From Suttonella sp. R2A3 (GTDB taxonomy: Bacteria; Pseudomonadota; Gammaproteobacteria; Cardiobacteriales; Cardiobacteriaceae), in the NCBI RefSeq assembly GCF_021513215.1, contig NZ_CP090975.1, positions 799,501-863,500 on the forward strand: a stretch of 64,000 bases of DNA. Reading direction: 5' to 3'. A program made the position numbers and the translations under genes. The notes below the pieces were generated by a model. That model saw only the letters and a list, made by a program, of their open reading frames with translations, was not told the DNA's origin and made no database searches. Of this stretch, positions 37,689-63,289 are shown one piece after another (positions within the stretch are counted from its first letter, which is position 1; every line of letters starts with the position of its first letter).

Positions 37689-37696
37689 AGTTAATA

Positions 37697-40980: not shown

Positions 40981-40984
40981 CGTG

Positions 40985-42064: not shown

Positions 42065-42107
42065 TATATTTACCTCTGCTCCACCCTATACCAATTTGAC
42101 TTTACCA

Positions 42108-42708: not shown

Positions 42709-42728
42709 ATTTCTTAAAAATTACTTAG

Positions 42729-42878
42729 TTAAAAATCACCATCTGTGTAGGTATCAAAGTTCTGGGCGGTATGCACCAGTACTTCTGTTAGCTCATCCTT
42801 TTCTTGAATGACTTTAGACACCACACTGGCTTTTATAAATTGCAGCCCAGCGCCAATGATGGTTAGGATCTTTTTCAT
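42729..42878 (-). pseudogene. 5' remnant of a WbpI/WecB-like 2-epimerase gene
   Basis: A 49-codon frame from ATG 42878 reads MKKILTIIGAGLQFIKAS and continues through ELTEVLVHTAQNFD before leaving the homology and stopping at 42729. It is about 80 percent identical by eye to the start of the complete gene at 37697-38770, but has lost the RPQF motif (GLQF). A leftover of an older gene copy or of a recombination event. Confidence 0.85.
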
Positions 42879-42879
42879 A

Positions 42880-44232: not shown

Positions 44233-44366
44233 AGTTAAAACCTTTGTGGGCCACAGAATGACGCGGAAAAACACAGAATTTTCATTGTTAAGGTTGGGGG
44301 GCCAAGAAACCTACTAAAAACACGAAAATTATTAAATTGAAAATACATGCAAAAATATAGTGTTAC

Positions 44367-45329: not shown

Positions 45330-45332
45330 AAA

Positions 45333-46070: not shown

Positions 46071-46082
46071 TTGACACACTAA

Positions 46083-46207
46083 TCATTTATTAAACAAACT
46101 TTCATATATATTAACATTTAAATAAGGAATCAGCTTATTTATTGGAATCTTACTCTTAATACCAGCTTCAGCATCAAAACTATTATCTAATTCCTTTATA
46201 AATATAT
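46083..46207 (-). pseudogene. 3' remnant of an unidentified gene cut by the IS element
   Basis: An open frame comes out of the IS left end and reads NIFIKELDNSFDAEAGIK, then KIPINKLIPYLNVNIYESLF to a TGA at 46083-46085, 13 bases before the methyltransferase start. The spacing is that of an operon neighbour. About 41 codons remain; no family could be recognised. Confidence 0.6.
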
Positions 46208-46247
46208 TGTAATCCCCCCATTTTAAGCAGCAGCTATTAGTAGAAAG

Positions 46248-47066
46248 TTATGCTGTCTTCAATAGCATTCACGGTGGCACACCGCCAATAGCCATGTTAG
46301 GACGTTCATTATTGTACTGCCATAACCACTTTGTGGCTAAGCATTGTGCTTGCTCAACTGTCTCGAAGATATTTAGATCCAGCCATTCATGGCGTACCGT
46401 GCGATTAAATCTTTCGATATAAGCGTTCTGCGTTGGATTTCCAGGTTGAATATAAATCACGCTTATCCGGTTTTTATTGGCCCAGTCAATCAACGCCTGC
46501 ACAATGCATTCAGGCCTGTTGTCACAACGAATCGCTGCAGGTTTGCCTCGTTCTTCAATCACGCGACCTGAAGCCCTGATTACCCTTGCTGCAGGCAAAG
46601 ATAGATCAACATCAATACACAAGCCTTCACGATTAAAATCGTCAATCACGTTGAATGTTCTCAGTGTTCGTCCATCCTCAAGGCTGTCACTCATAAAGTC
46701 CATCGACCAGACCTCATTTATGGCTACAGGTTCGCTCAACGCATCAGGTTTATCACGCTTGATTCGACGTCTGGGTTTAATGCGTAGATTCAGCTCAAGC
46801 TCTCTGTAGATGCGATACACGCGTTTATGATTCCAGCCGTAGCCTTTTACATTGCGCAAATACAAATAACACAGGCCAAAACCCTAGCGCTTATTGGTTG
46901 TGGTCAGACGCAGAAGTCAGTCTGCAATCAAGCCATTTTCACCTGACAGTTTTGCTTTGTAGTGATAACAGCTTTCATTGATACCCAGACAGTCACAGGC
47001 AAAGCGAATACTGATGTTATACTTCTCTATTGCATGCATCGCCATCTCCTTGCGATGAGATGGCTT
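46248..47066 (-). pseudogene. IS3-family transposase OrfB (DDE integrase), three nonsense changes
   Basis: About 272 codons in one frame, from KPSHRKEMAMHAIEKYNISI to MLLKTA. The DDE core is visible: [18 protein letters not shown] (first Asp), [10 protein letters not shown] (second Asp; the family has GPEF/Y) and [17 protein letters not shown] (Glu). Three in-frame stops interrupt it: TGA after GLIAD, TAG after TTNKR, TGA after GGVPP. At the aligned positions the family has Trp, Trp and Arg, so each is a single transition. Not functional. Confidence 0.85.
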
Positions 47067-47333
47067 TATAACTTTCCCTCAAAGGTTTCCTGTCGAATCT
47101 CGGCCTTAAAACGTTCTTCCACATACATTTTTTTCAGACACCTGTTTTTCTTCTTCAAGCGCTTTCAACCACTTCATCATCGAGGCATCCATACCACCAA
47201 ACTTAGAACGCCATTTATAAAACTGGGCTGAACTCATGCCATGCTCTCGGCATAAATCTGCAACAGCTACACCGTTTTCATTTTGTTTTAATATTGCCAG
47301 TATCTGGCTGTCTGAATATCTTGATTTTCTCAT
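47066..47333 (-). pseudogene. IS3-family OrfA (helix-turn-helix), frameshifted
   Basis: Begins MRKSRYSDSQILAILKQNEN with the HTH VAVADLCREHGMSSAQFYKWRSKFGGM, typical of IS407-group OrfA. After EEEKQVSEK an A7 run shifts the frame (NVCGRTF then stop). With A6 the frame would continue MYVEERFKAEIRQETFEGKL, the expected OrfA end overlapping orfB. Confidence 0.85.
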
Positions 47334-47409
47334 CGAAAACTCCTCATTGCTCTATGATAGAATTTTCTACTTAAAACTGCTTCGGTTCTTTTGGGGAGGG
47401 GAAATTACA

Positions 47410-47780
47410 ACCACATCTGTCTTTACATTCTCGTGGGTTGGCTGAGGCACTTTATAAAGCCAATCGTGGTTTAAACTACCGAAGAAACGCTCGACTATAG
47501 CATTATCCCAGTAAGCTCCCTCGACCCCATACTCGCCCGCACCTTGTAGTTGCGAAGTAATTTGCGAAAGCACTGACTAGTGTACTGTGGAAAATCAGTC
47601 CAATAGGCGGTTGCCTAAGGTTGTAACACCTAGTCAGCGCTTTGCGTACAATGTCCGTGGTCATGCGTTTGTCAATATGCCACCCGACAATACATCACGA
47701 GCACAAGTCCATAACTACGGTAACTGTCAACATAGTCGTCGTGTTTAAGCAATCAACTCTTTAATAATTAACCGCCTTTT
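47410..47780 (-). mobile_element. Degraded second IS3-family transposase fragment
   Basis: In the minus strand one reads VVMDLCS, stop, then IVGWHIDKRMTTDIVRKAL, RQPPIGLIFHST and, in another frame, GAYWDNAIVERFFGSLNHDW and KVPQPTHENVKTDV, which are the DDE core and C-terminal blocks of an IS3-type OrfB different from the neighbouring element. Stops and frameshifts are numerous. Its 3' part ends exactly at the tip of the IS at 46208-47409, which appears to have inserted into it. Confidence 0.75.
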
Positions 47781-47856
47781 CCGGCAACTTCCATCCCATT
47801 ATTTGAGTGTTGTGGTTATTATCTAAATTCAGGCATATTGACTTGATAGTCAGTTA

Positions 47857-49011
47857 TTATGAAACATGAAAAGGAATACCTTTTAATTCCTCTCCCGCGA
47901 GAATTCTATTAAGATAATCGACCATCCTGCTAAAAGTATCCATATCTGTATATTCACAATGATATGGTAAGAAATCATTTAATCTAGACTGCTCTGGTGC
48001 GTGGCTTTTGACTGCTAGCATCAATTCTTCTGCACTAGAACACACCTTAAAAAATTTTGAAAACTGCAAAAAATCTTCCCCGTAGTCACTATACCTAATA
48101 ATAATAGAGTCTAACCCCCTTAATCCATAGTCAATAACTGAGTTTGATAGCATAGTTAAATGAACTGAAGCATAAGATGCCAACTCATCCTTGTTGTGTC
48201 CAGAAGGAAGTACAATAAGATTTATCAATTTTTTATATTTGTGCCAAAAGACATTAACAGTTTCGCAAGGATGTAGGGTAACAATAATTAATGTATTAGG
48301 ATCTTTCTTTGCAAAATCAACTACCATCTCATGTGTTAACTCTAATAACTTTTGAACGGCTGTATTTTTTGTAAATGCCGAGGAATAAATAACCACCCGT
48401 TCAAAATTAGAATTAGAAATTTTAGCAACATGCTCACTACTCAACTTTAAGCCATCATCAATTTCACACATTAATGGCCCTATTTTAACAAGCTTAGTAC
48501 TACCAGAGTGAATGTGAATACCTACACCTCTATTTAAGTTATCTATAGAAGAATCGCCATAAATAAAATAATAATCGAAATCTATAATACTATAGTTCGA
48601 TCCAGTGCCAATAACGCAATGTGGTATATTTATTAACTTAGCGCCAGAGTATTTTTTTATTGCAGCTGATAGCCCCCAAGCATTTTCCATATGAATAATT
48701 AGTTTTGATTTATGCATCCCAAGCCCTCGTCCATAAGCCGATCTTAGCATGGGTTTAATTTTAGATTTCTGAAATATAAACTCTGGTTTACCTAATAGTG
48801 TATAAGCCAACAAATTTAATCTGTTTTTAATTATGATTTTAGAGACCCCATTTAACTCTTTAGCCAGGTTCATATTAAATAATATACTGCTATCTAAGCA
48901 CTGCGAAATTAATAGGATATCTTTCTTTCTTATGAAAGGCTTTGTTAGGATAATAAAAACTCGACTAAAAGAAACGAATAAAATGTAAAAAAATAAATTA
49001 TTTCTCATCAT
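47857..49011 (-). CDS. Putative capsule/teichoic-type transferase (GT-B-like), function unknown
   Basis: 384 residues, AT-rich. An N-terminal hydrophobic helix (FFYILFVSFSRVFIIL) is followed by a soluble domain. Blocks such as INIPHCVIGTGSNY, FDYYFIYGDSSIDNL, LIIVTLHPCETVNVF and VHLTMLSNSVIDYGLRGLDSIIIRYSDYGEDFL resemble in layout the CDP-glycerol/polysialic-type GT-B transferases (HP near the middle, a Ser-rich nucleotide site near the end), but no exact family can be named. Flanked by IS relics on both sides, so it may have arrived separately. Confidence 0.55.
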   Translation of the reverse strand: MMRNNLFFYILFVSFSRVFIILTKPFIRKKDILLISQCLDSSILFNMNLAKELNGVSKIIIKNRLNLLAYTLLGKPEFIFQKSKIKPMLRSAYGRGLGMHKSKLIIHMENAWGLSAAIKKYSGAKLINIPHCVIGTGSNYSIIDFDYYFIYGDSSIDNLNRGVGIHIHSGSTKLVKIGPLMCEIDDGLKLSSEHVAKISNSNFERVVIYSSAFTKNTAVQKLLELTHEMVVDFAKKDPNTLIIVTLHPCETVNVFWHKYKKLINLIVLPSGHNKDELASYASVHLTMLSNSVIDYGLRGLDSIIIRYSDYGEDFLQFSKFFKVCSSAEELMLAVKSHAPEQSRLNDFLPYHCEYTDMDTFSRMVDYLNRILAGEELKGIPFHVS

Positions 49012-49170
49012 AAAGAAATCTCATAGTAAACTATCAAACTATGCTCTGTTATACATATAAAAACATCATAATAAACACGATAATGTAATATTTTAGTAGT
49101 ATAGATTAGAGACCCGGAGCAAGACTACGGGAGCCTCAATTCTATCATAGGGCTTAACGACAGATAATTG
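49012..49170. other. Short gap without a recognised feature
   Basis: AT-rich sequence upstream of the 47857-49011 gene. It probably contains that gene's promoter, but no clear -35/-10 pair stands out. Confidence 0.4.
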
Positions 49171-49560
49171 CTATTAAGACTCATCCTCTTCTGTTTACGT
49201 TTGATATCGGTATTGAGCGCTAAGTGGCAAATGGCCACCATGCTTCCGCCAATTTGATCTCAACACCCACTCTTAAAAAGACAGTGAATGTACCACATGC
49301 CCATATACAGTTAGCAATATAATTGTTACTCGATTGACCAATGCGAACTCGTAAACAGATCTTTCTCTGCCAAGCCAAGTTGAGTTCCCTTTGAGCATAG
49401 CCGACTTCCAGAATACTATAACCGCTAGCGTCTTACTACTGGATCTAATCTCCTCACGACTTTCTATGCTGCCGATAACCGCCGTGACAACTGAAAAAAG
49501 AATATCCACGAGTTTGTGCTCGATTTTCCATTGCCACCAGAGCTCAATACCCGCTATTGT
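49171..49560 (-). mobile_element. Possible relic of an ISAs1-family (H-repeat) transposase
   Basis: A 78-codon open frame (49273-49509) contains LVDILFSVVTAVIGSIESREEI when extended upstream, close to the start block of ISAs1 transposases (VDILFIAIxAVIxGAESWxxIxxF). Downstream in another frame MVAICHLALNTDIKRKQKR resembles their C-terminal RHLALNLL block. All of the central transposase is missing. The call is tentative because identity is low. Confidence 0.4.
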
Positions 49561-50252
49561 TTAACCTCGTATATCATTAAATAAAAACTCCACCCACTTA
49601 AAATCCATCTCCGTATCTATGTCAACCGAGCTATGCATATCCATTTTATAGGCAAAAATATTATTTTTAATAAAGAATGATTTTTGTTTTAAAAGACTAG
49701 ATATCCTACAAATATAAAGAGCGCCATTAAGCCTATAGTACACGGGTAGATCTTGACTGCGTTGACTATAAACTTCATCACGCAAAAAATTATCCATACT
49801 GAAACTAGCTGGAAGCGTATTGGTCCATAAGGGGCTGTGCTCTGTTTCACATACCGATATAACAGCATCAGAATTTTTCGATTCCAATAATTCAATAGCT
49901 TCATCAATATGCTTTGCGTTACGTAATGGACTTGTCGGTTGTAACATCACCACATATTCATAGCCTTGATTGTTGTCTATGGCATGCTTCACAGCATCAA
50001 AGCTGGTTGCTGTATCTGTTGCTAAATGGTCTGGTCTTTGTAGCGCTGTTACTAAATAGGTTTTTGCAATATCTAACACTTCAGCGTTGTCACTTGTTAC
50101 CACAACTTTAGATATATGTTTACTTTCTAACGCAGCCTCAATAGTCCATGCAACCAAAGGTTTTCCTGCTAAAGGTAAGATGTTTTTCCTTAGCAAGCGT
50201 TTGCTCCCACCTCTGGCTGGAATGATTGCAAGATATTTTTTTCTCTATTCAT
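49561..50252 (-). pseudogene. legF: CMP-nonulosonate (legionaminate) cytidylyltransferase, one-base frameshift near the start
   Basis: Activates a nonulosonic acid with CTP. The open part begins MLRKNILPLAGKPLVAWTIE (50196); the preceding bases encode the expected CTP-binding start YLAIIPARGGSKRL in the same frame. ATG at 50252 reaches it only if the A7 run (T7 at 50236-50242 on the + strand) had eight A: MNREKKYLAIIPARGGS. MLQPTSPLRNAKHIDEAI and the C-terminal SSVDIDTEMDF are family blocks. Without the PARGGSK loop the enzyme should be inactive. One missing A may be real or a sequencing error. Four bases after ptmE. Confidence 0.88.
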
Positions 50253-50256
50253 ATAA

Positions 50257-51309
50257 TTATTTAAAATAAATCTCTATATCTTTTTGCGCTTTTTGATAAT
50301 CTTTCATTTGCCCTATATCCAACCAATAATCATAGCTGGTGAATGTACCGATACGCTTATTGTTTTCACGATGTTGCTCTAGCAAAGTGGGTAAATCTAT
50401 TCGTTGATCAACTTCAACAGATTTAACAATTTCAGAGCTAATTACATAAATACCCGTGTTGATTTTATAGTGGTATGTTGGCTTTTCAACCATATTGATA
50501 ATCAGCTGATTTTCTGTTTCTATAACGCCAAAAGGGACACGGTGCTCATCTTCGCGCACACACACTGTGGCATCAAAGTTGTTATCGATATGGTGTTGCA
50601 AAATCTGTGCATAATTAAGCTTTGTCAGCACATCACCATTCACCATAATAATGGGTAAATCAATTAAATCATTTGGTAATAACCCCAGTGCCCCACCTGT
50701 TCCTAGTGGCTTTTCTTCATGAATATATTGAATATTAACACCCCAAGCTTTGCCATCCTTAAAATAATCTCTAATCACTTCTGGTAAATAGTGTGTAGAG
50801 ATATAAAAGTTTTTAAAGCCATGCATTTTAAACTGATTTATTAAGCGCTCCAGCATCGGCTTGTCACCAACCCTAAGCATAGGTTTTGGGCAGTGGTCGG
50901 TAAAAGGTTTTAATCGAGTACCAAAACCACCAGCCATAATAAAAACGGGATTTTCCCGTTTTTCTACAACTATCGCCTGGTGCAGTGTCTCTAAACCATA
51001 CACTTTTTTGTTAGTGTCAACAATAGGAATTGCATTTAAATCATATTCAGACATCAACTGCAGCCGTTGTTCTCTTGATGAATTTATATCAGCTGTTATT
51101 GGCTGAACGTTCATTACAAGGTTTGCGGCATCTTCCATATTACTGTCAGCTAATAAAGCACGACGGATATCGCCATCGGTAATCGTACCTAAAAGTTTGT
51201 TTTCATTATCAACCAACATGCAAATACGCAATGACTCTTTATCAAGGCTACGCATAGCTTCTCGAATAGTGGCATTAAGAGGAATTAATGTACTCTTCCA
51301 ATTTCTCAT
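50257..51309 (-). CDS. ptmE: Nucleotidyltransferase with CBS domains (PtmE-like, legionaminate pathway)
   Basis: 350 residues. Two CBS repeats occupy about 1-118 (LRICMLVDNENKLLGTITDGDIRRAL; LNAIPIVDTNKKVYGL), then a sugar-nucleotidyltransferase domain: FIMAGGFGTRLKPFTDHCPKPML with the GxGTRxxPxTxxxPKPM motif, MVNGDVLTKLNY and DYWLDIGQMKDYQKA. In Campylobacter PtmE makes GDP-glucosamine, the nucleotide sugar entering legionaminate synthesis. Adjacent to legF. A truncated second 5' end lies at 55456-55594. Confidence 0.88.
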   Translation of the reverse strand: MRNWKSTLIPLNATIREAMRSLDKESLRICMLVDNENKLLGTITDGDIRRALLADSNMEDAANLVMNVQPITADINSSREQRLQLMSEYDLNAIPIVDTNKKVYGLETLHQAIVVEKRENPVFIMAGGFGTRLKPFTDHCPKPMLRVGDKPMLERLINQFKMHGFKNFYISTHYLPEVIRDYFKDGKAWGVNIQYIHEEKPLGTGGALGLLPNDLIDLPIIMVNGDVLTKLNYAQILQHHIDNNFDATVCVREDEHRVPFGVIETENQLIINMVEKPTYHYKINTGIYVISSEIVKSVEVDQRIDLPTLLEQHRENNKRIGTFTSYDYWLDIGQMKDYQKAQKDIEIYFK

Positions 51310-51597
51310 TTTTTAATCTATTAGTAACCATGAATACTAAATATCATAGGATTATTTTAGAACAGCTTCTTAATTATTGCCTTTACCAAAAATTTGTCAA
51401 TGGCAGGTTCAAATAACCTCATTTGTCATTACCCTAATTTGCTTTTTTACTCTAATACTTCACTCATAACTGGTATAACTCTCGTTCTCTAATTATATCC
51501 GAGCGCAGGAAAACCAGCTTTTTACTATAATCACTAGATATTTCCCCACTTCCGATTATACCAGCTAGTATTTTCCATACAACTAATGCCAACCAAC

Positions 51598-51623
51598 ACA
51601 CCTTTCCTAAAACGGAAAGGTGT
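51598..51623. terminator. Perfect 10-bp hairpin downstream of the Gfo/Idh/MocA gene
   Basis: ACACCTTTCC and GGAAAGGTGT flank a 6-base loop (TAAAAC). It lies about 50 bases beyond the minus-strand oxidoreductase stop. No strong T run follows on either strand, so it could be a weak terminator or an RNA-stabilising hairpin. The rest of the 365-base gap (51310-51675) shows nothing recognisable apart from the likely ptmE promoter region. Confidence 0.5.
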
Positions 51624-51675
51624 ACAATTCAAATACAGTTACATAACAAATAACGAACTGAATACATTTTATTTT

Positions 51676-52662
51676 TCAATCATTGTTGTCCAATAGGTTA
51701 TTGTCATGACCATAAATTGCCGCAATCAGCTGCATCGTTTTAAATGAATCTGCAAGTGTAGGCAACTTAGCCACTTTCCCTTTCGCTGCGGCAACAGCTT
51801 GACTGGCCTGATACAAAAATCCAGGCTTATAATTCGAATCCGCAGAATCAATTGGAAATGCAGTCACCCCCCTTTGGCCTCTCAATTGTTCTGTTGCTTG
51901 TTCAAGTGGTCGCATTTCCAATCGCCGTTGCCCAGTCGACACTGACACTGCCCAAGGGCCTGGACCTTGCCAGTTAGCTTCATACAGCCCTACGTCACCA
52001 CTGGAATAATTAATCTTAGCAACCACGTATCCTGGACTATCTGGGTCCCATGGAATGATAGACTCCACTTGGGTGACACTACCTCTACACAAAGTATTGA
52101 AGTAATCAATCAAGTGTATGGAGTTGCCATACATCAAATTATTAGCGACCTCTAAAGGGTGTCCATGAACGTTACGTGCCGCTTCTTGATCTTGTTGATC
52201 AAGCACAGTAACGAATCGCTTCTCTGAGGAATTTTGCTCCAGACGATCCAGCACCTGCCGCGTACTTGATAATGCACGGCGATTGAGCCCCACATAGACA
52301 TTACAATCAGCCTCTGCAGCAGCTTTGTAGATATCACCTGCCTCTTTATAATTTATCCCAGCTGGCTTTTCCAACAAAACTAACCACGGTTGACGAAAAC
52401 ACTCGAATGCCACATCGCGCATAGCTGATATACTAACTGCAACAACGACTATATCTGCTTGTGTCTGCATAAATAACTCTGCAACGGAAGCGTAATAACA
52501 CATGGATGGATGTTGCTGACACAATTTATTCGCACGCTCTTTTGTTCGACTGTGAATACCACACAGCTCAACATCTGGCAACGCTGCAAAGGCTTTAGCA
52601 TGTTGTGTTGCCATACTTCCAGCACCAATTAGCGCCACTTTAACTTTTTTCTTTTGAGACAT
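51676..52662 (-). CDS. Gfo/Idh/MocA family oxidoreductase
   Basis: 328 residues. N-terminal Rossmann motif ALIGAGSMATQHAKAF (GxGxxxxxH), then ADIVVVAVSISAMRDVAFEC and the family catalytic block LEKPAG (EKP with Lys), followed by YVGLNRRALSS. Substrate likely a nucleotide sugar or free sugar of the surface glycan, used with NAD(P). The start lies 11 bases after a second, diverged family member, so the two may work in sequence. Confidence 0.85.
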   Translation of the reverse strand: MSQKKKVKVALIGAGSMATQHAKAFAALPDVELCGIHSRTKERANKLCQQHPSMCYYASVAELFMQTQADIVVVAVSISAMRDVAFECFRQPWLVLLEKPAGINYKEAGDIYKAAAEADCNVYVGLNRRALSSTRQVLDRLEQNSSEKRFVTVLDQQDQEAARNVHGHPLEVANNLMYGNSIHLIDYFNTLCRGSVTQVESIIPWDPDSPGYVVAKINYSSGDVGLYEANWQGPGPWAVSVSTGQRRLEMRPLEQATEQLRGQRGVTAFPIDSADSNYKPGFLYQASQAVAAAKGKVAKLPTLADSFKTMQLIAAIYGHDNNLLDNND

Positions 52663-52673
52663 ATTTTAACTCC

Positions 52674-53690
52674 TTATGCCCAAGGAAATTTTCTAGTATT
52701 ACCCTTCACTTGAGAAACTTCAACAAGCACAGAGTCTTGTTCAGCTGATAATTGCGCCGCAACTAATGCACAAACCACATTACGCCCACAATCACCATCT
52801 GGAAATGAGCCTTCCTCAAACATGCACTGCCATATTGCTTGTGTGGCAGCAAGCACATCTATTGGCTTAATCTCCTCCAAATATTCATCAAAAGGCAAAC
52901 CGTATCGAGTTGTTGGCATTGTTCGGCTCTCTTCTTTTCTGTGTACGCAACGCAACTTTCCCGCTAATTCATCCACATACACTTGGCCGTACTTGCAATT
53001 ATAGATAGCAGAAATGCCATGCCCTAGATCGCCACCCAATTCGATATAAGCACGCATACCGTTTTCCAATACAGCACGTAATTGGCCAGACCGATCTTTA
53101 TACTGATCACCCCGAGGGTTTGGCACGGTTACAGTGTCCGCCCAAAACTGCACAGCTTTCGTTAAGCTTCCATTACTCATATAACGCAGCATTTCAAAAT
53201 AGTGCGAAGCATTCATCGCCAAACCAAAGTTTGCACCAGATATAATAATACCGCGTAATCCACCCAATGCAGGGGACTCTACAAGCTTTTTGACTGATAC
53301 ATATTCCTCTAGAAAACGCTGTGGGTGATTAACCGCCAGCTGGGTACCAGATTGACGACAGGCCGCAATCATTTGGTCACACTCATCTACTGAGACAGCC
53401 ATTGGCTTCTCGCAGAGCACATACTTCAAACCTGCTTGCGCTGCTTGAATAACATACTCGCAATGACTAGGCGCCGTAGAGGCGACGACCAATCCATCCA
53501 AATTAGTATCCGTCAACAACGCTTCAGCAGAATCAAAAACCTGCTTATCAGATAGGCCAAACTCATCAACTGCCGTACTAATGGATGCTGGTTGTGGATC
53601 AAAAATACCAACCAATGTCATACCTAAATTTTCAATAACTTGAATGTGACGCCGCCCCATGGAACCCACACCAATAACCGCCACTCTCAT
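52674..53690 (-). CDS. Gfo/Idh/MocA family oxidoreductase
   Basis: 338 residues. VIGVGSMGRRHIQVIENLG is the NAD-binding site, VASTAPSHCEYVIQAAQAGL and VLCEKPMAVSVDECDQMI (catalytic Lys in EKP) are typical, then LAVNHPQRFLEEY. Within the glycan locus a role in dehydrogenation or epimerisation of a nucleotide sugar is likely; the exact reaction is not readable. Upstream lies about 500 bases with only gene remnants. Confidence 0.85.
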   Translation of the reverse strand: MRVAVIGVGSMGRRHIQVIENLGMTLVGIFDPQPASISTAVDEFGLSDKQVFDSAEALLTDTNLDGLVVASTAPSHCEYVIQAAQAGLKYVLCEKPMAVSVDECDQMIAACRQSGTQLAVNHPQRFLEEYVSVKKLVESPALGGLRGIIISGANFGLAMNASHYFEMLRYMSNGSLTKAVQFWADTVTVPNPRGDQYKDRSGQLRAVLENGMRAYIELGGDLGHGISAIYNCKYGQVYVDELAGKLRCVHRKEESRTMPTTRYGLPFDEYLEEIKPIDVLAATQAIWQCMFEEGSFPDGDCGRNVVCALVAAQLSAEQDSVLVEVSQVKGNTRKFPWA

Positions 53691-53875
53691 TAATGACCCC
53701 TTATGTTGCTATTTAAACAAACCTTATAATTTCAAAATCTATTGGGTTGTCGAAGTCAATAGATTATTTTATAGACATCACACAACCTATTTAGTCGCCA
53801 ATTCTCACACAAAAACAACTACAAATTAAAATCCTCTATATAATCAGCATCGACCCAATATGCAGATATAAGAAA

Positions 53876-54127
53876 CTATAGCAATTCGTTATATAACTTG
53901 CCAACAAGACAAGCCTCTTGCTCTATTTTTACGCCTGCATTAAACAATTCGTTGCTACGGCCAGTTATATTTAGCGTATAAGCTCCTTTACTATTCATTT
54001 TTAAAGCTACGAATTGAAAGGACTACAAACCGTCACAGTTTTCATATAAAACGATTCTATTACAGTTACAACTAATTTTTCTATCAGGTGAAAGCACATT
54101 GGGCAATCTGTACCAGCTGTTAATACC
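53876..54127 (-). pseudogene. Fragment of an unidentified glycan-locus gene
   Basis: One frame of 84 codons, interrupted by a single TAG, reads GINSWYRLPNVLSPDRKIS, NRIVLYENCDGL, stop, SFQFVALKMNSKGAYTLNIT and EQEACLVGKLYNELL to a final TAG at 53876-53878. It looks like a protein C-terminus, not random translation, but matches no family I can name. The surrounding 53691-53875 and 54128-54190 hold nothing recognisable. Confidence 0.4.
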
Positions 54128-54190
54128 CTAGTTGACTTTATTCCATTATCTTAAAATTAAGCGCGTTCTGCCCCTATATAGTGCCCAATT

Positions 54191-54822
54191 TTAATTAGCA
54201 CCAATCGCCACAATAATACGCTCACATAGTGCACTATGTCCTTTTTCGTTTAGATGATGACCATCACTCATGGTAATCCCCTCATCAGGAAGAGCTATAT
54301 ATCTTGCATTTTTAAGTTGTTTTAATATCGTATTATACCTGCCTACATATTTTTCAATATTTGGAACAGCTTTAATTAGGTCATCACCAAAAATCGTCTC
54401 TATAAAAAATACACTACTGCCATCAAACAAACTAACTATCGTAGACATATTCTTAGCATATTGTTTCTCTTTGGTATATCTAATATTTCGAATACGCCGA
54501 AAAACTGGCCTATTAATCGCCCTTAATAATATTTTCCCCAATAGTGGCAGCATCCTTATAAACGTCAGCTCTAATTTAGATACAAATCGTGGCGTGCAGT
54601 CGACAATTCCAGACTGGACGATAACAATATCTGGGCAAAAATTTATGTAATAATTAGCTTGACGAAGCAACTCACCAGAGGTCCCCCCCCTAAAGATAAC
54701 TGTTGAACTTCATAGCCATAAGTTTTTAACAATACTGGCCATGTGGCTTCATAACTGCAATATTCTGGAGCATCTCTTGGTAGCGCCAAAGAATCAGATA
54801 AAACAAGTACACGTATTGCCAT
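54191..54822 (-). pseudogene. SGNH/GDSL-type hydrolase with a frameshifting G8 tract (possibly phase-variable)
   Basis: Starts at ATG 54822 with RVLVLSDSLALPRDAPEY, the block I (GDSL-like, here SDSL) of SGNH hydrolases. The frame reads into G8 (LGGGP) and stops at 54643. In the alternative frame it continues TSGELLRQANYYINFCPDIV, QSGIVDCTPRF and, near the end, MSDGHHLNEKGHSALC with the catalytic Asp-His pair of block V. Nine (or six) G would join both. The product, about 210 residues, would probably add or remove O-acetyl groups on the glycan. The tract leaves block I and the DxxH pair in different frames, so the present form is off. Confidence 0.8.
54683..54690 (-). repeat. G8 homopolymer inside the SGNH hydrolase gene
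   Basis: Eight C on the + strand within AT-rich DNA, about 45 codons into the gene. Frame is open through the full gene at nine or six G. It is the second long G tract in the glycan locus after that at 40528-40536. Confidence 0.9.
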
Positions 54823-54944
54823 TTTATTTCTCTCTTCATTTATTTGATAAAAGTTCTCAACTGAAAGATAGCGCATTATATGGCACGGTGCGATTAAATC
54901 ACTAGATATAATCATTTTGTTGTGGGTTTCTAGGCCGAATAAAC

Positions 54945-55455
54945 TTTAGCTCTATCATATTTTAGCCACCCAATTTTCTAACAGATGACTAATGTAGCCT
55001 GGGCCATTATCACAACGAATTGCCTGAGGTTTACAGGACAGCTGGCTTTAAAGCTTTTTTTCGATGATACCCTTCAACACGTGGTGTTCTAGGCTGAGGT
55101 CGGCATACATCTGCTTAAGGCGGCGGTTTTCCTGTTCTAGCTCTTTTAGGCGCCTGATGTCTGGGACGCTCATGCCGCCATACTTACCCTTCCAGTTGTA
55201 GTAGGCCGCATCAGCAATGCCGTATTCCCGGCAAACTTTCTTGACGAGTCGTCCTCCTTCAACTTCTTTGAGGATCTTGACTATCTGTGTTTAGCTATAG
55301 CGTGATTTCTTTATTTGTCGTTATCCTGTTGCGCAGTTTACGTCAGAGAACTCTAAATGGGTATTATCTATTTTAGGGGATGGTTACATTACCCCACCAT
55401 TCTATGAGAAAATTCCACTGAAAACTCCTTTTATCTTATGGAGGAGGGATTACTT
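54945..55455 (-). mobile_element. Internally deleted IS3-family element
   Basis: An 88-codon orfA relic (55048-55314) reads KKSRYS, stop, TQIVKILKEVEGG, then YYNWKGKYGGMSVPDIRRLK and NRRLKQMYADLSLEHHVLKG to KL; its start codon is ATA and a TAA sits at codon 8. Immediately after it only the orfB piece KPQAIRCDNGPGYISHLLEN remains, so the rest of orfB is deleted. The outer end near 55449-55455 again has the GTAATCCC tip. The element interrupts a ptmE-like gene. Confidence 0.8.
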
Positions 55456-55594
55456 CGCCATCTGTCACAGTTCCTAACAACTGCTGCCTGTCATTAACAA
55501 CCATGCAAATACGCAACGAGCCTTGATCAAGGCACCGCATCGCATCACGGATGCTAGTTTTAGGTGAAAGAAGGATAGATTGCCAGTTTTTCAT
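55456..55594 (-). pseudogene. 5' remnant of a second ptmE-like gene, cut by the IS
   Basis: From ATG 55594 the frame reads MKNWQSILLSPKTSIRDAMR, then CLDQGSLRICMVVNDRQQLL and TVTDGE before running into the IS end. It matches the first ~45 residues of PtmE (50257-51309), the start of CBS repeat 1. It overlaps the PIG-L gene stop by 4 bases, the tight coupling of an original operon, so ptmE once followed that gene directly. Confidence 0.85.
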
Positions 55595-56253
55595 TGGATA
55601 ATCTCTTTAAGGAGCATGAAACTTTCAGCGTATTCACAGCCTGCGGAAGCTCCACGAAGAATTGCTAATGCCTTCATGTTTTTATGGCTTCTTGGAAAAG
55701 GGTGTTCTCCTATTTCACTTGCAAACACCTGCATAATATCTAACTTCTTTTCAAGATACTCACTTATATCGTTATATACATTTGGTACAAAACTATCTTC
55801 TTTAGTGCTTGGCGCAAACTCCGTTTCACTTAGTGTCTCCATCATATAAATTTTTCTAATAAACGGATAACGAAACGATTTGGTACAGCTATATGCCGCA
55901 TCAAAAATTTTACGGTGGTCACTATGAACATCCGCCTTAAACGGTAAGTAAATAATATTTGGTTGGATTTCTTTAATTACTGCTGAAATTTTGCTAATTA
56001 GTTCGCTCATGCTGTATTCATCCACTTGCATCGTTTTTAAACGTAGGTTGTGTACGCTATCAAAGACATAAAGCTGCGTAACCTTATCAATCTCCTGCTC
56101 ACGTTTATCAAAGTAGTGATGGTTGTCTGGAATTGTTGTACCAATTAACCAATGAATAGCATCCCCTTGCGCCTTATGTTTGAGCAACGTACCACCGCAA
56201 CCAAGAGTTTCATCATCTGGATGGACAGCGATAACCAAAACCTTGTTATTCAT
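55591..56253 (-). CDS. PIG-L family N-deacetylase
   Basis: 220 residues. The zinc-binding motif AVHPDDETLGCGGTLLKH is at the N-terminus and ADVHSDHRKIFDAAYS supplies the third His. Such enzymes remove N-acetyl groups from GlcNAc-type sugars or their derivatives. It overlaps the formyltransferase gene upstream by 4 bases, so deacetylation and formylation may follow each other on the same amino group (inference). It lies in the nonulosonate operon between the formyltransferase and the ptmE remnant. Confidence 0.9.
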   Translation of the reverse strand: MNNKVLVIAVHPDDETLGCGGTLLKHKAQGDAIHWLIGTTIPDNHHYFDKREQEIDKVTQLYVFDSVHNLRLKTMQVDEYSMSELISKISAVIKEIQPNIIYLPFKADVHSDHRKIFDAAYSCTKSFRYPFIRKIYMMETLSETEFAPSTKEDSFVPNVYNDISEYLEKKLDIMQVFASEIGEHPFPRSHKNMKALAILRGASAGCEYAESFMLLKEIIQ

Positions 56254-57128
56254 AAATACTCACCTTTTTCTGGCAATTTACTAAATTCATGTCTAATAAT
56301 CTTCACTGCGCCGTCATAACATTTAATTAACAAGCTCCGTTCGCAATCTAAAACCAAGCCTGGCTCAAGGTTATTTTTATCATACTTAACTTCTTCAATC
56401 TCCCATATCTTAACTTCTACTCCATTATGTAGAAGATGCGCTCCAATATATGGTTCTGATAAGCCTCGCACTAAATTATATATTGCACGACTAGACATTC
56501 TAAAATCTATCAAGCCATCTTGAGGGGTACGCTTTCTCCAAAGATTTGAAAGCTCATGACGTTGAGGAGTTCTTAAATAATTACCTTTTTTTAAATCCGG
56601 CAAAAAATCTTCTATTTGCTTCAAAGCAATATTTGTTATCCTGTTATATAAAGAGAGAGCATTATCTTCATAACCAATACATACTCGCTCTTGGGATAAT
56701 AAATCCCCATCATCAGCCCCTTCTTCCATAAAGAAAAATGTAGAAGCCGTTTGGTCTAAGCCCAAAATAAGCGACCAAATAATAGGGTGCCTTCCTCTAT
56801 TTTCAGGTAATGCTGTTGGGTGAAATCCAACAACTCCTATGCTTGTGAGGTTTAATAGTTCTGATTTGATCAATTTTGACCAGCCAAAACAAAAAATAAT
56901 ATCTGGCTCTAATGCTCTAATCCAGCCTATACTTTCTGGTGAATTTATATTAGAAGTATAAATAAAAGGAATATTGTTTTTTTTACATAATGGCGACAAA
57001 TCCACAAAATCACTGTTAAAGTCTGAGCGCTGCTGTGTACATACACCAACCACTTGCTCATTCTTCCTAATTAGAAGTTCCAATGCCATATAGGAAAATT
57101 TTACTGTACCAATTAACAAGATACGCAT
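56250..57128 (-). CDS. Formyltransferase family protein (putative sugar N-formyltransferase)
   Basis: 292 residues. Formyl-THF transferase fold: ILLIGTVKFSYMALELL at the start, then GFHPTALPENRGRHPIIWSL and EEGADDGDLLSQE with the catalytic His and Asp. The Asn of the usual NxH catalytic motif is replaced: the protein has GFH. A C-terminal domain (about 200-292) carries the GLSEPYIGAHL block found in methionyl-tRNA-type and sugar formyltransferases. Embedded between the 2-epimerase and PIG-L genes, it probably formylates an amino sugar of the nonulosonate route. Confidence 0.82.
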   Translation of the reverse strand: MRILLIGTVKFSYMALELLIRKNEQVVGVCTQQRSDFNSDFVDLSPLCKKNNIPFIYTSNINSPESIGWIRALEPDIIFCFGWSKLIKSELLNLTSIGVVGFHPTALPENRGRHPIIWSLILGLDQTASTFFFMEEGADDGDLLSQERVCIGYEDNALSLYNRITNIALKQIEDFLPDLKKGNYLRTPQRHELSNLWRKRTPQDGLIDFRMSSRAIYNLVRGLSEPYIGAHLLHNGVEVKIWEIEEVKYDKNNLEPGLVLDCERSLLIKCYDGAVKIIRHEFSKLPEKGEYL

Positions 57129-57129
57129 A

Positions 57130-58287
57130 TTAAACCTTTAAATTATAAAATTTCTTTTTAAGGATATTTTTTAGTTTAGCATCCTTTAGAACCTTAACAA
57201 TTTTGATGCCTGCTTTTCCTTCACCATAAGGATTTATCGAACTCTTAAGCCTCTGTTGAAGCTGTGAGGAATAAAGTTTATCAAATGCTTTTTGTATTGA
57301 CTCTTTGGTAGGATCACAGTCAATCACGCTATCTGCCTTAATACGCCCTGCTTGTCGGTCACCAATATTAATTGTACCGATATGAAAGCTTGGTGCTTCA
57401 GCGAGCCCGCTAGAACTATTACCCACCATGGCATCGACATATTGCAAAGCGCTTAAATACCTCAACTGCCCCAGTGAAGTAAAACCTACCGCTTTGTGCT
57501 TATTATTAGCAACATATCCATCAATCATCTGGTTGATAATACGGCCATCAGTGTCTGAGTTAGCTTTGGTGAAAATTAAATGTGTACCTTCTAATTCATC
57601 GAGCGCCTTTAAAAGCTCGGAAAACTGATTCTCAGAAGTCGCACTTTCCAACGTAACAGGGTGAAACGTTATTAATAAATTTTTCTCTGCCAGCTTAAAA
57701 TCAATCGAATCTTCAAATGCTTCTTTACTCAAAAGTTGCAAACGATGGATATTCTCTATCCCCATTCCACCTACATTAAAGACTCGCGTAGGATCTTCTC
57801 CAAGTTGGATAACTCGATTGCAATATTCTTCGGTTGCTGTGAAGTGTAGGTGGCTCATTTTTGTAATACTGTGCCTAATAGATTCATCAATAAGGCCTTC
57901 AGTCGTTTCACCACCATGTAAATGCGCTATAGGAATTTTTGCTACCATCGCAGCACTAGCTGCTGCAAAAATCTCATAGCGATCACCTAACAGAACGACA
58001 ATGTCGGGGTTTAGTTCATCATAAGCTTCAGCAAAACTGATTTGCGCAAGACCAATTGATTTTGAAATACCAACCGCAGTATCAGAAGACAATAGCATTT
58101 CAATCTTCTTGTTGATCGTAAATTCTTTTTCTATTTCTTGATAAGTGAGCCCAAATTCTGGGCTAAGGTGCATGCCAGTCACAATCAATTGCAACTCAAA
58201 CGTTGGCTCAGCCTGAAGTTCTTTCATAAGCCAATATAGCAGCCCATATTCTGCTCGTGTGCCGGTTACTACGCAGATTTTTCTCAT
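57130..58287 (-). CDS. legG: Hydrolysing UDP-sugar 2-epimerase of nonulosonate synthesis (NeuC/LegG)
   Basis: 385 residues. CVVTGTRAEYGLLYWLMKEL at the start, VTGMHLSPEFGLTYQEIE, VVLLGDRYEIFAAASAAM, HLHGGETTEGLIDESIRH and VGNSSSGLAEAPSF are all diagnostic of the hydrolysing group. LegG converts UDP-2,4-diacetamido-2,4,6-trideoxyglucose to the 6-deoxy-mannose form with release of UDP; NeuC does so with UDP-GlcNAc. The start overlaps the legI stop by 4 bases (ATGA). Leg rather than Neu is chosen because legB and legC are present. Confidence 0.92.
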   Translation of the reverse strand: MRKICVVTGTRAEYGLLYWLMKELQAEPTFELQLIVTGMHLSPEFGLTYQEIEKEFTINKKIEMLLSSDTAVGISKSIGLAQISFAEAYDELNPDIVVLLGDRYEIFAAASAAMVAKIPIAHLHGGETTEGLIDESIRHSITKMSHLHFTATEEYCNRVIQLGEDPTRVFNVGGMGIENIHRLQLLSKEAFEDSIDFKLAEKNLLITFHPVTLESATSENQFSELLKALDELEGTHLIFTKANSDTDGRIINQMIDGYVANNKHKAVGFTSLGQLRYLSALQYVDAMVGNSSSGLAEAPSFHIGTINIGDRQAGRIKADSVIDCDPTKESIQKAFDKLYSSQLQQRLKSSINPYGEGKAGIKIVKVLKDAKLKNILKKKFYNLKV

Positions 58288-59285
58288 ATCAAGTCATCCT
58301 CTTGATAATCTCGTAGGGCTGCGGTGCCTAATATTTCATCCCAGCACATTGGATTAATGCCTGTTCCAGGGCGTTTAATACAAAGGTTCTCTTCGGTAAA
58401 TGTATCGCCTTTATTTATTGCTGTTTTAGCCACTAATGACTTGCGTACGATAGGCTTATTCTTTGATTCACTCGGACTAGGCTTTTTCATACTACTACCT
58501 AGTGCTATTTCGATATTACGAATGGCTGTAACCATCGCTTTGAGCTCATCAGGCTCTAGGCTTGCTTTATGGTCTGGGCCTTCCATTGTTTTATCTAGAG
58601 TGAAATGTTTTTCGATAACTTTAGCGCCCAAAGCAACTGCAGCGATAGGCACTTCGATGCCTCGCGTGTGGTCGCTGTAACCGTAAGCAACATCAAAAGC
58701 CTTCCCAATGGTTACCATGGCTTTTAAGTTAACATCTTGCATTGGGGTAGGGTATTCAGTATTTGCATGCAGTATGGTGATATTATTTTTGCTAGTACCT
58801 GATTCAATTAATACATCAAGCGCTGTCTCAATTTCACCGAGGTTTGCCATACCCGTAGATAGAATTACCTGCTTTTTCAACCTGCCGATATGCCGCAAAT
58901 AAGGAAGGTTTGTTATCTCACCACTGGGGATTTTAAATGTTTGAAGGCCCAAGGTGTTTAAGAAGTTAATGCTATCGTGATCAAAAGGGGTAGATAAAAA
59001 CTCTATATTTTTTTCTTGGCAGTAGGCGATAAGCTCATGATGCATAGCTTCGCTTAGCTCTAACTTTTTGATCATATCAAACTGAGATTCTTCTGAACCT
59101 GTGGTTTGTTTTTGGTAGTCGGCTTTTTCAGTATTTTTAGATATACATAGCTCCGTTTTAAATGTTTGGAATTTTACTGCGTCAGCTCCAGATCCAGCTG
59201 CAGCGTCAATCAGCTTTTTCGCCAACTCTAAATTTCCATTATGATTAACACCAGCCTCGGCAATAATAAAAGTTTTCTTTTCCAT
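58284..59285 (-). CDS. legI: Nonulosonic acid synthase (NeuB/LegI)
   Basis: 333 residues from ATG 59285 (a GTG three codons upstream is possible). The NeuB barrel starts FIIAEAGVNHNGNLELAKKL and contains ADAVKFQTFKTE, FKIPSGEITNLPYL, STGMANLGEIE and HFTLDKTMEGPDHKASLEP; the C-terminal antifreeze-like SAF domain has KSLVAKTAINKGDTF and KRPGTGI. It condenses the diacetamido hexose with phosphoenolpyruvate to legionaminic acid. Specificity is inferred from the legB/legC/legG context. Confidence 0.93.
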   Translation of the reverse strand: MEKKTFIIAEAGVNHNGNLELAKKLIDAAAGSGADAVKFQTFKTELCISKNTEKADYQKQTTGSEESQFDMIKKLELSEAMHHELIAYCQEKNIEFLSTPFDHDSINFLNTLGLQTFKIPSGEITNLPYLRHIGRLKKQVILSTGMANLGEIETALDVLIESGTSKNNITILHANTEYPTPMQDVNLKAMVTIGKAFDVAYGYSDHTRGIEVPIAAVALGAKVIEKHFTLDKTMEGPDHKASLEPDELKAMVTAIRNIEIALGSSMKKPSPSESKNKPIVRKSLVAKTAINKGDTFTEENLCIKRPGTGINPMCWDEILGTAALRDYQEDDLI

Positions 59286-59294
59286 GATATCCAC

Positions 59295-60287
59295 TCACTT
59301 CCTATATAGCTGAAATAGTTTAGGCGTTATTTTATCATTATGTTCATTCTGCCACATTTTATTAAGTCGGGCTCTGACCTCCGGCATAAAATCGACCCCC
59401 GCAATATAAAAAGGAAGCTTTACATCCGAAAATTTAGACTTGAACTTAAATAAATTATCATTTTCATCCGCAGTTCTTCCACCGCCAAGCATCATCCACC
59501 TGCAGCCTTTTTCTTTAGCACGCTCAAATGCGCAGTCCAGCAAGAGATAATTACCGTTTTCTCGCATGAAGCTTTGGTTATTTGCAGAAAGGTGATAATG
59601 AGAAATATCGCTACCGTACATAAAAAAACCTGAGGAAACTATATCGTTATCTAGTTTCACTTCAATCAACTCAATCCCACTGATTGAAGACAGACCTTCA
59701 AAGTACTCAGGCTTGAAATAATAAAATTCTTCTGCAGAGTTTTTATTCATTGTTAAGTCATACAGTTGTTTGAAATCATCAAAACTCTTACTGCCATATT
59801 CATAACTGAGCTTCTTATAAGCTTTACGTAACACATTTCGAGTTGTCTTCGAATACTGAGCCCAGCGTGCCTCTGTACTCAAAGATAAATCAACCATCAC
59901 CACAGTTCTTTCTTTCAAGATAAAATCAAACAGTGAGCTATGCCGCGACAATGTATTAAAAGGATGAAACCTAATGAACTCGCAAACAATCTTTTCTTTA
60001 ATACAATGTTGGCGGTAGGCTTCAAAAGCTGAATTTAAAAAAGCAGTATCATTACTATTCGTTAGTGGACCACCATAGCCATATGGCGTTTCCAGATCAT
60101 AAAGCTCTTCTTCAACAGGAACTCCATAAACATTTTCAATCTTTCGCTTAATTGAATAGAAGGAAATATACTTCTCACCATCTTTAAAAACATAGTCAAA
60201 TAGCTCTCCATCGCCTGCCAAATAAAGCTTCGAATAACTATCCTGGTAATAAATATCATTAAGCAGATTAAACTTTTTGCAGTTCAA
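59295..60287 (-). CDS. FemAB-like GNAT acyltransferase
   Basis: 330 residues. It has the FemAB-type signature: TPYGYGGP near residue 67, RWAQYSKTTRNVLRKAYKK (the lipid II/acceptor helix) and GNYLLLDCAFERAKEKGCRWMMLGGG in the C-terminal GNAT half. Starts with TTG inside the last codons of the methyltransferase gene (20-base overlap), and its stop overlaps the upstream part of legI. It is a candidate for an N-acylation step of the nonulosonate pathway, since no LegH is visible, but FemAB proteins usually transfer amino acids. Confidence 0.8.
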   Translation of the reverse strand: MNCKKFNLLNDIYYQDSYSKLYLAGDGELFDYVFKDGEKYISFYSIKRKIENVYGVPVEEELYDLETPYGYGGPLTNSNDTAFLNSAFEAYRQHCIKEKIVCEFIRFHPFNTLSRHSSLFDFILKERTVVMVDLSLSTEARWAQYSKTTRNVLRKAYKKLSYEYGSKSFDDFKQLYDLTMNKNSAEEFYYFKPEYFEGLSSISGIELIEVKLDNDIVSSGFFMYGSDISHYHLSANNQSFMRENGNYLLLDCAFERAKEKGCRWMMLGGGRTADENDNLFKFKSKFSDVKLPFYIAGVDFMPEVRARLNKMWQNEHNDKITPKLFQLYRK

Positions 60288-60949
60288 TGATCCATTCCTT
60301 TATTACATTACCATTCATAAAATTTTCTTCTATACTTCTAATATCTAGTATAATATTATTATCGAGTTTATAAAGTTTTTTAATATCATTATACGTTGTA
60401 TAACGAGCGAATCCTTTTCCTGCAATTGGACCACTATCTGGAATAACTGCATGATAATCACATTCTTTACCACTAAGCCCCCATGTGCCATCAGCAAAAG
60501 TTTGCGATAAAAATTTACCCTTTGTTTTTAACTTCTCAAAACACTTTTCTATGATTTTTTCTAGAATAATAAAATGAATTACAATATAGACTTTCCATAT
60601 CAATAATGGCATTAAGAGAATTATTTTCAATCTCATCTAAAGTCTTATAATAATCACCACAACTATACTTTAAGACATTTGAATCTATTCTCTCTTCTTC
60701 AAATCTTTTTTTCATCGTATTAATAGCACTTTGACTTCCTTCAAGAGCTATAACACTGAATCCTTCTCTTGCGCAAAACCAAAGATTCGCTCCTGTTCCT
60801 GAACCAATTTCTAAAATTTTTATCTCTTTTCTATTTGGTACTTTATAAAAGCTTCTTGCAATAAACTTTATAACTGATAAAGCTGGATATTTACCCCATT
60901 CATTGTTTGCAAAGATCTCTTCCCACAATATTAAATTTTGATTTTTCAT
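60268..60949 (-). pseudogene. Class I SAM-dependent methyltransferase, frameshifted
   Basis: The N-terminal frame (60949-60536) begins KNQNLILWEEIFANNEWGKY and has SAM motif I ILEIGSGTGANLWFCAREGF and IIDMESLYCNSF. It goes out of frame at an A6 run (T6 at 60555-60560). One A fewer gives NSFYYSRKIIEKCFEKLKTK, continuing in the second frame with FLSQTFADGTWG, ending ELQKV at 60268. About 226 residues when joined. The indel may be mutation or error. Sits between the FemAB-like and legC genes. Confidence 0.85.
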
Positions 60950-60967
60950 CTTCGCTTCTTAATTAAT

Positions 60968-62105
60968 CTATATCGGCACCGAACTGGGTATATTAACAAC
61001 ATGTTGCTCTAGCCATTTTGCGTTAGTTAGCTCTCCATGCTGGCAGTGCTCAAACATAGGGAGTTCGTTCATAAGGCGCCATATTGGCCGTGTCATTACG
61101 CCTTGTTCGTTGCTGGAGGCAAGAAAAGCATTGCGCTCATCAACACTGTTCTAGAATAACTGCCTGTAACCAGTAATTTGATTGACTGTCTGCCGGCTCT
61201 TGCACCCAATAAATATCATTTTCTGCGCAAAAGGCTTTGTACTCTTGTGCTAATTTTCTCTTCGCCACTAAAAAGCTATCAAGCTGTTCCATTTGCGCAA
61301 CCAGTAGCGCAGCATTTAAATTTGGCAGTCGATAATTGTAGCCAATATAATCATGCACATATTCAAACAAATGCGGCATTTTTGCTGTGGTACTTAAGTG
61401 CTTTGCTTTTTTTGCCAGTACGTCATCATCGGTGACAATGACACCGCCTCCACCGCTAGTGATGACTTTATTGCCGTTAAAGCTGAATGTGCCTAGTTGG
61501 CCAAAAGTACCCGTGTGCTTATTCTTGTAATAACTGCCTAAACTTTCTGCAGCGTCTTCCACCAAAACAAGATGCCACTGTTGGCAAATCTCTGCTATTT
61601 CATTTATACGGCAAGGGTGTCCAAAGGTGTGCATTGGAAGGCAAGCTTGAATGACTTTGCCAGAACTTATATTGATGCATTTGCCGTTTTCAACTTTTGC
61701 ATTTTCAGTCAGAAAATGACGTAGCGCTGTGGGGCTCATACCTAGGGTGTCTTTATCAACATCAATAAAAATAGGCTGTGCACCGCAGTAGCTAATTGCA
61801 TTTGTGGTTGCAATAAAGGTTAGCGGTTGAGTAATTACTTCAGTATTTTTGTCCGCACCTGCAAGCACCAATGAAAGATGGAGCGCTGCTGTGCCATTCA
61901 TGGTAGCTACTGCATATTTTGCACCAACATACTCAGCAAATTTACGCTCAAATTCATCAACGAATTTTCCTACACTCGATACAAAGGTAGAATCAATACA
62001 TTCATTTAAGTATTTTTTTTCATTGCCCATGAAGCGTGGCTCATGCAGCGGAATAAAGTCTTGTTGCGCAAATGCTTCACGGATAAAATCAATAAGAGGC
62101 TGCAT
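60968..62105 (-). pseudogene. legC: UDP-4-keto-sugar aminotransferase LegC, frameshifted near the C-terminus
   Basis: PLP-dependent DegT/DnrJ/EryC1 aminotransferase. Start IPLHEPRFMGNEKKYLNECI, TMNGTAALHLSLVLAG, LVEDAAESLGSYY, and the Schiff-base Lys in GTFSFNGNKVITSGGGG are visible. The frame stops at 61140 after VILEQC (321 residues). In another frame the sequence continues VDERNAFLASSNEQGVMTR, then PIWRLMNELPMFEHC and VVNIPSSVPI to a TAG at 60968-60970, the normal C-terminus. One base is in excess (or two missing) near 61143. In the Leg route it adds the 4-amino group. Two bases after legB. Confidence 0.88.
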
Positions 62106-62107
62106 CG

Positions 62108-63289
62108 TTACATCTTCCCGTCGAGATATTTTCCGGTTTCTTTATGGCCAAAATCAGGAATCATCTCGAAGAACAATTGTACTATTTCTTCTTTGCTCCA
62201 TTTTTTTTGCTGCAGCATATTCTCGATGCTACTTTCAAAATATTTAAGTAGCTCTGTGTTGTAATTTACCTCATTTTTGATGACACCAAGGTTAACAAAT
62301 CGTTCCATATCAAGCGTTTCTTGGTCAGTGAAAAATTCTTCGAAATCTTTTTCGCCAGTAGTGTCACTACTAGTAAACAGACAAGGCCATTTCTTTTCTG
62401 CAGGCAAGCTTTTTGCAAGCTCTCGTGCTTCGTCTTCCGATGCACACAAATGCGGCTCATAACCTAATCTTTCTAAGTATTTTTTGGCTATATCAGCAAA
62501 AGTGATTAAGTGTAGGTTTTCACTCAGTTTGGGGAAGAAAATATCTCTGTTTTCACCGAATATACAGCTCATTAAGCAGAGCTCGCCAGACTCTTGTGGT
62601 GTAACGAAATAACGCTTTATATCATTTGGAGCGACGATAGGTTGCTGCTTTTTTATGCGCTGGTCAAAACCGTGTAATAGAGAACCGTCACTAAAAGCCA
62701 CATTAGCAAAGCGAGCCATAGAGACCTTTATTTGTTCAGACTTACGCATGACAAACATTTCCATAATGCGCTTGCTAGCCCCCATCATGTTAACTGGGTT
62801 AGCCGCTTTGTCTGTACTCACACAAAAATATTTTTTAACGCCTTTATCGATGGACTGTTGTAGGGTTTTATCGGTATTTAAAATATTGGTTTCGATCATG
62901 CGCATCAAGGTAAACGGGTCTTTCTCACTGCGTACATGCTTAAGCGCTGAAAGATTAAGCACATAGTCGTACTCACCATCTTGTGCGATAAAGGCATCGT
63001 ACTCACGGCTACTAATATCAAGCGCAAAGGTCTGAAAATCGCCATCAATATAGCCAAATGAACTTCTGATATCACGAACCAACTCAACCATATTATTTTC
63101 ACTAAGATCAACAACGTGGAGGGTTTTAGGGTTGCGTTTAAAAATCTCTTTGGTAACTGCCTGACCGATAGAGCCTGCACCGCCTAGCACGAGAAAGCGA
63201 GATTGGTGCACTACTTGGTCTAGGTCACCATGGTGGACGAAAAGATCATCATTAAATAAAGCCTGACTACGACCGATCAAATTAAGCAT
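62108..63289 (-). CDS. legB: Nucleotide-sugar 4,6-dehydratase LegB (CapD-like)
   Basis: 393 residues. SDR fold with NAD motif FLVLGGAGSIGQAVTKEIF, substrate-site LNLSALKHVRSEKDPFTLM (the altered Met/Lys dyad of 5-inverting or soluble CapD-type dehydratases), STDKAANPVNMMGASKRIME and ARFANVAFSDGSL. First committed step of legionaminate synthesis: dehydration to a 4-keto-6-deoxy sugar. The start overlaps the flippase stop by 8 bases. Specific assignment to LegB is from context; the family itself is certain. Confidence 0.9.
   Translation of the reverse strand: MLNLIGRSQALFNDDLFVHHGDLDQVVHQSRFLVLGGAGSIGQAVTKEIFKRNPKTLHVVDLSENNMVELVRDIRSSFGYIDGDFQTFALDISSREYDAFIAQDGEYDYVLNLSALKHVRSEKDPFTLMRMIETNILNTDKTLQQSIDKGVKKYFCVSTDKAANPVNMMGASKRIMEMFVMRKSEQIKVSMARFANVAFSDGSLLHGFDQRIKKQQPIVAPNDIKRYFVTPQESGELCLMSCIFGENRDIFFPKLSENLHLITFADIAKKYLERLGYEPHLCASEDEARELAKSLPAEKKWPCLFTSSDTTGEKDFEEFFTDQETLDMERFVNLGVIKNEVNYNTELLKYFESSIENMLQQKKWSKEEIVQLFFEMIPDFGHKETGKYLDGKM

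Follow-up and report, generated by a model that had tools for sequence, protein, structure and literature searches.

A frame break at a G8 tract in an SGNH-hydrolase-like gene of a Suttonella nonulosonic acid island is probably a homopolymer under-call

The gene considered here lies on the minus strand of a 64,000-nucleotide stretch of the Suttonella sp. R2A3 genome (hereafter the window), whose assembly consists of 1,989,117 bp in one contig, and belongs to a surface glycan island, the features of which are compiled in Table 1. It starts with the ATG at position 54822, opening MAIRVLVLSDSLALPRDAPEY, and extends to a stop codon at 54191, with a distance of 632 nt from ATG to stop, i.e., 2 modulo 3. 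The reading frame is broken at a homopolymer, CCCCCCCC, which is C8 on the plus strand and G8 on the coding strand. Translation from the ATG (...VLVLSDSLALPRDAPEY...QQLSL) shifts out of frame at this tract and meets a stop after 59 amino acids, and the other half (...TSGELLRQANYYINFCPDIVIVQSGIVDCTPR...SDGHHLN..., also comprising GIVDCTPR) is found in a different frame, which ends at the stop at 54191. To join both halves, six or nine G are needed. A simple repeat that sets the reading frame is present inside the gene, and it falls exactly on the glycines of SGNH block II. Apart from this break, the gene shows no further stop or shift and its catalytic residues are kept. An earlier, sequence-only reading of the same DNA had stated that the G8 splits the gene and that six or nine G would restore one frame; the former holds as a description of the assembly and the latter is borne out by the 632-nt distance.

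Table 1. Features of the SGNH-hydrolase-like gene and of the surrounding island (positions refer to the window)
Feature	Position	Strand	Basis or remark
SGNH-hydrolase-like gene, frame broken at G8	54191..54822	-	Frames, relatives, predicted model
G8 tract (C8 on plus strand) over block II glycines	54683..54690	-	Sequence, relatives
Upstream part: block I DSL (Ser11), 59 aa then stop	54643..54822	-	Translation
Downstream part: block III-like GIVDCTPR, block V SDGHH (Asp186, His189)	54191..54682	-	Translation, relatives
CMP-nonulosonate synthetase-like gene and PtmE-like nucleotidyltransferase with CBS domains	49561..51309	-	
Two GFO/IDH/MocA oxidoreductases, adjoining the SGNH gene in several relatives too	51676..53690	-	
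PIG-L deacetylase, formyltransferase-like, NeuC-type epimerase, NeuB-type synthase	55591..59294	-	
Low-GC surface glycan island with both tracts	36450..63977	-	GC 36-41% vs 47.5% in genome sample
G9 tract splitting glycosyltransferase-like gene	40528..40536	-	N part 40465-40980; C part 39998-40387 and upstream in frame

The low GC content of the region at 36000-64000 suggests that the island is acquired DNA, and its gene content suggests synthesis of a legionaminic-type nonulosonic acid (NulO). Remnants of IS3-type transposases, orfB-like and orfA-like and identified by reading the sequence, flank this part of the island (46269-46865 and about 54955-55290), and a search for repeats of at least 25 bp at 46-56 kb yielded none. 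Two other genes of the island are damaged as well. The gene for a LegC-type DegT aminotransferase (61140-62105) is broken near 61150, with the last ~60 residues lost and no homopolymer at the junction, and the frame of the SAM-methyltransferase gene at 60268-60949 is interrupted at an A6 run. This damage allows for decay of the island or for further assembly errors.

When both halves of the SGNH-like gene are read through, the AlphaFold model of the protein, aligned with its relatives, is of high confidence (pLDDT 90.3, pTM 0.85) and has the flavodoxin-like fold of the SGNH enzymes. The solved structures closest to the model are TesA and other GDSL enzymes (Foldseek E 1e-7, VIA Z 16-19); a sequence search of the PDB yielded no match. 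Ser11 and His189 are invariant among 12 sequences and Asp186 is at least 90% conserved. The Lipase_GDSL_2 profile matches 9 of 12 family members (best 4e-15), with the protein from 54191-54822 itself remaining without a match. The assignment to SGNH hydrolases made in the sequence-only reading is thus supported by the fold model and by these profile matches. The Asn of block III, an oxyanion-hole residue in SGNH enzymes (PMC9487903), is replaced by Val in all members (G-I/V-V-D). With the triad kept but this Asn being Val throughout, the family would be no more than a divergent offshoot of the SGNH superfamily and would not represent canonical SGNH enzymes. Other SGNH branches likewise devoid of the block III Asn are SASA, PatB1 and XOAT1 (PMC9487903).

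A genome scan yielded 11 relatives of the protein, with identities of 22-41%. A further, intact copy, only partly annotated as a hypothetical protein, came from a Sphingomonadaceae plasmid in a search of plasmids. The resulting set comprises 12 distinct relatives, all of them intact (L004 and L022-L032; L005 encodes the same protein as L030 from Mariprofundus erugo). No homologs were found in phages, nor in the examined genomes of the same genus, family and order; the class and phylum samples contained one distant relative. For all 11 relatives of the genome scan, NeuB-like genes are present in the stretch examined, and the plasmid relative has PtmE-like and CMP-synthetase genes alongside, as is the case here. 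The motif G-I/V-V-D-C-x-P-R, in which Val replaces the block III Asn, marks an SGNH branch that occurs in nonulosonic acid loci of Bacteroidota, Proteobacteria, Lentisphaeria and an archaeal MAG; a characterized member of this branch was not found. The glycan role proposed in the sequence-only reading gains support from this context, as every relative sits in a nonulosonic acid locus. For the same reason, O-acyl editing of a nonulosonic acid is the likely role of the SGNH-like protein.

At the site of the tract, all 12 relatives have three residues encoded without a homopolymer, and no G or C run of at least six occurs in any of them. Block II, with its oxyanion-hole Gly, reads GG(A/G)T in 9 of the 12, encoded by mixed codons (the others read RGST, ARDT and RNDT). 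A length of nine G, corresponding to three successive GGG codons where the relatives have mixed Gly/Ala codons, aligns with them free of gaps. This gap-free fit to the three residues of the relatives, mostly GG(A/G), speaks for an under-called tract.

Frame breaks of the same type are found in other parts of the assembly. For comparison, 863.5 kb of the own genome (the window included) and 1.6 Mb of G001, a genome of the same genus, were searched against each other by tblastn in both directions. Among 391 conserved genes of the own genome (413 kb), 13 were frameshifted, being divided between two frames at a single point, compared to 2 of 392 in the G001 control (Fisher P 0.004). A homopolymer of at least five was present at 10 of the 13 break sites, and at neither of the two in the control. 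The broken genes (names by NCBIfam) include rplC (ribosomal protein L3), ssb (single-stranded DNA-binding protein), hom (homoserine dehydrogenase), hisC, hemA (glutamyl-tRNA reductase) and sufD, with rplC, ssb, hom and hisC being single copy; rplC, ssb, hom, hisC and hemA rank among the essential or housekeeping genes. The gene rplC is essential, and in this genome it occurs once, split into neighboring halves that are read in different frames. As an essential gene exists only as a split copy, the assembled consensus must contain indel errors. hemA, likewise a conserved gene, is not broken at a long run. The break sites of rplC, hom, hisC and hemA are located in L045 at about 15043 (G000:C1:1115043), L044 at 5924, L033 at 1185 and L047 at 12950; ssb, sufD and mepA are broken elsewhere.

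With regard to run type, 3 of 19 G/C runs of at least six in conserved genes were broken (2 of 16 at six, 1 of 3 at seven), compared to 5 of 492 A/T runs of at least six. G/C runs of this length are hence the worst class, and longer ones should be worse. Counting against an under-call of the G8, 14 of the 16 G6 runs and 2 of the 3 G7 runs were not flagged as broken. The three G runs that are broken in conserved genes, as well as the G8 and the G9, which share one frame class, are all one base too short (or two too long). Since essential genes break in the same way, mostly at homopolymers and with G runs one base too few, the simplest reading of the G8 is an under-called homopolymer: we infer from the error pattern elsewhere in the assembly that the frame break is an assembly error and consider it probable that the gene is intact in the cell. 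Re-sequencing of the tract would most likely yield nine G. According to this explanation, the tract would have an in-frame length in the cell and the consensus would be one base short; the product would be an ordinary SGNH hydrolase or acyltransferase of ~210 amino acids, presumably cytoplasmic, encoded in a legionaminic-type NulO island, and would probably cleave off or transfer an O-acyl group of the NulO or of its precursor.

The sequence-only reading had instead taken the tract for a phase-variable switch. In surface glycan genes, for instance those of Campylobacter, poly-G tracts are a standard means of phase variation, and slipped-strand mispairing at such a tract, with the sequenced clone being in the off state, would produce the observed frame. 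The single piece of evidence on which the claim had been based was the off-frame tract itself, yet rplC, ssb, hom and hisC are broken likewise and the three broken G/C runs among 19 are also one base too few. On this evidence the switch is unsupported, and an error of sequencing is more likely than an on/off switch. Only three G tracts of at least eight occur in the 1.99-Mb genome, namely the G8 at 54683-54690, the G9 at 40528-40536 and one intergenic G8, the latter lying 43 bp ahead of the ATG start codon of a DsbA-like gene (G000:C1:1251514-1251521; L009 1501-1508). Two of the three are positioned 14 kb apart within a 28-kb island, with a P of about 0.003-0.07 under a Markov composition null, depending on the model order. 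A genome-wide enrichment of long G runs was considered and rejected, as such runs are strongly depleted: in ORFs of at least 200 amino acids, synonymous shuffling predicts 20.7 G7 runs, whereas 3 were observed, and about 6 G runs of at least eight, whereas none was observed.

Because two such tracts in one low-GC island, both in glycan genes, are unusual, a biological cause is possible, and the placement is suggestive of it, albeit recognized post hoc. The three consecutive GGG codons in place of the mixed Gly/Ala codons of the relatives point in the same direction. On the other hand, none of the relatives has the tract, the off-frame state is accounted for by the error pattern of the assembly, and no G run is involved in the breaks of the LegC-type and methyltransferase genes of the same island. 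Furthermore, three tracts are few, known phasomes comprising more. Taken together, a genuine phase-variable tract captured in its off state appears unlikely. In a weaker form of this explanation, the tract varies in the population although the eight G of the consensus are an error. That the G8 and the G9 vary in the population at all is slightly less unlikely, though still doubtful, and the same measure of doubt applies to the view that the G8 in the SGNH gene and the G9 in the glycosyltransferase gene form a true contingency pair in the acquired NulO island, with a consensus that may misstate their lengths. The four on/off combinations of the glycan that had been derived from such a pair are speculation. 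The caution raised for the G8 applies equally to the G9 break in the glycosyltransferase-like gene (40465-40536).

The gene might also be a fixed pseudogene, inactivated by true slippage within the G run as part of a decaying island. The frame breaks of the aminotransferase gene, which lacks a homopolymer, and of the methyltransferase gene at its A6 run, both in the same cluster, are consistent with such decay, as are the transposase-like remnants and the low GC content, which suggests acquired DNA. The SGNH-like gene, however, carries one lesion, exactly at a homopolymer, and has retained all catalytic motifs, and the same type of lesion affects essential genes of the assembly. Moreover, hemA demonstrates that breaks away from homopolymers occur in this assembly too, and the break in the LegC-type gene may hence be an error as well. 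We consider a pseudogene improbable. As eight identical bases can slip in principle, slippage of the RNA polymerase or the ribosome at the G8 could yield the full protein from the off-frame gene. Since the slippery run is kept at this site in none of the relatives, nothing suggests conserved recoding, which is very improbable here.

The G8 break represents a cautionary case, in which a homopolymer frame break in a glycan gene mimics textbook phase variation while the same assembly breaks the gene for ribosomal protein L3 in the same manner. Before a switch or a pseudogene is claimed from this genome, evidence from reads is required. If the tracts do vary, the two poly-G runs would form a contingency pair for a bacterial nonulosonic acid glycan, and with a true pair, assembly of the glycan and O-acylation of its legionaminic-type sugar would switch independently, in a genome otherwise poor in G runs.

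Homopolymer indel errors in published assemblies (PMC8808543; PMC3711429) resemble the present case in that the breaks occur at homopolymers, in essential and dispensable genes alike, and are one base off, and many singleton broken genes with homologs were put down to sequencing error (PMC3711429); here, the error is deduced from the rest of the assembly. The poly-G glycan genes of the Campylobacter phasome (PMC6321876) also contain runs of at least eight G whose length sets the frame, whereas here the genome has only three tracts and the off-frame state can be explained technically. The mobile contingency locus neuO of E. coli K1, as referred to in PMC8319020 (reference 195 therein), controls O-acetylation of sialic acid and is a candidate parallel with respect to O-acylation control of a nonulosonic acid glycan. 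It is, however, a different enzyme from the SGNH-like protein, for which both switching and acylation are putative. In addition, neuO uses a heptanucleotide repeat and not poly-G. TesA and other GDSL hydrolases (PDB 4jgg, Z 19.0, rmsd 2.2, 160 aligned) share with the model the fold, the block I Ser, the Gly-rich block II and the Asp-x-x-His of block V, but have GxND in block III, where the family reads G(I/V)VDC(A/T/V)PR, with Val standing in for the oxyanion Asn family-wide. Compared by description, the O-acetylesterase NeuA of group B Streptococcus and E. coli K1 is, like the putative enzyme described here, encoded in a sialic acid locus (PMC8319020). In group B Streptococcus, the comparable esterase activity of NeuA resides in one of its domains (PMC8319020), and whereas this esterase is part of the CMP-sialate synthetase, the SGNH-like protein would be a stand-alone protein of 210 amino acids beside a separate synthetase gene.
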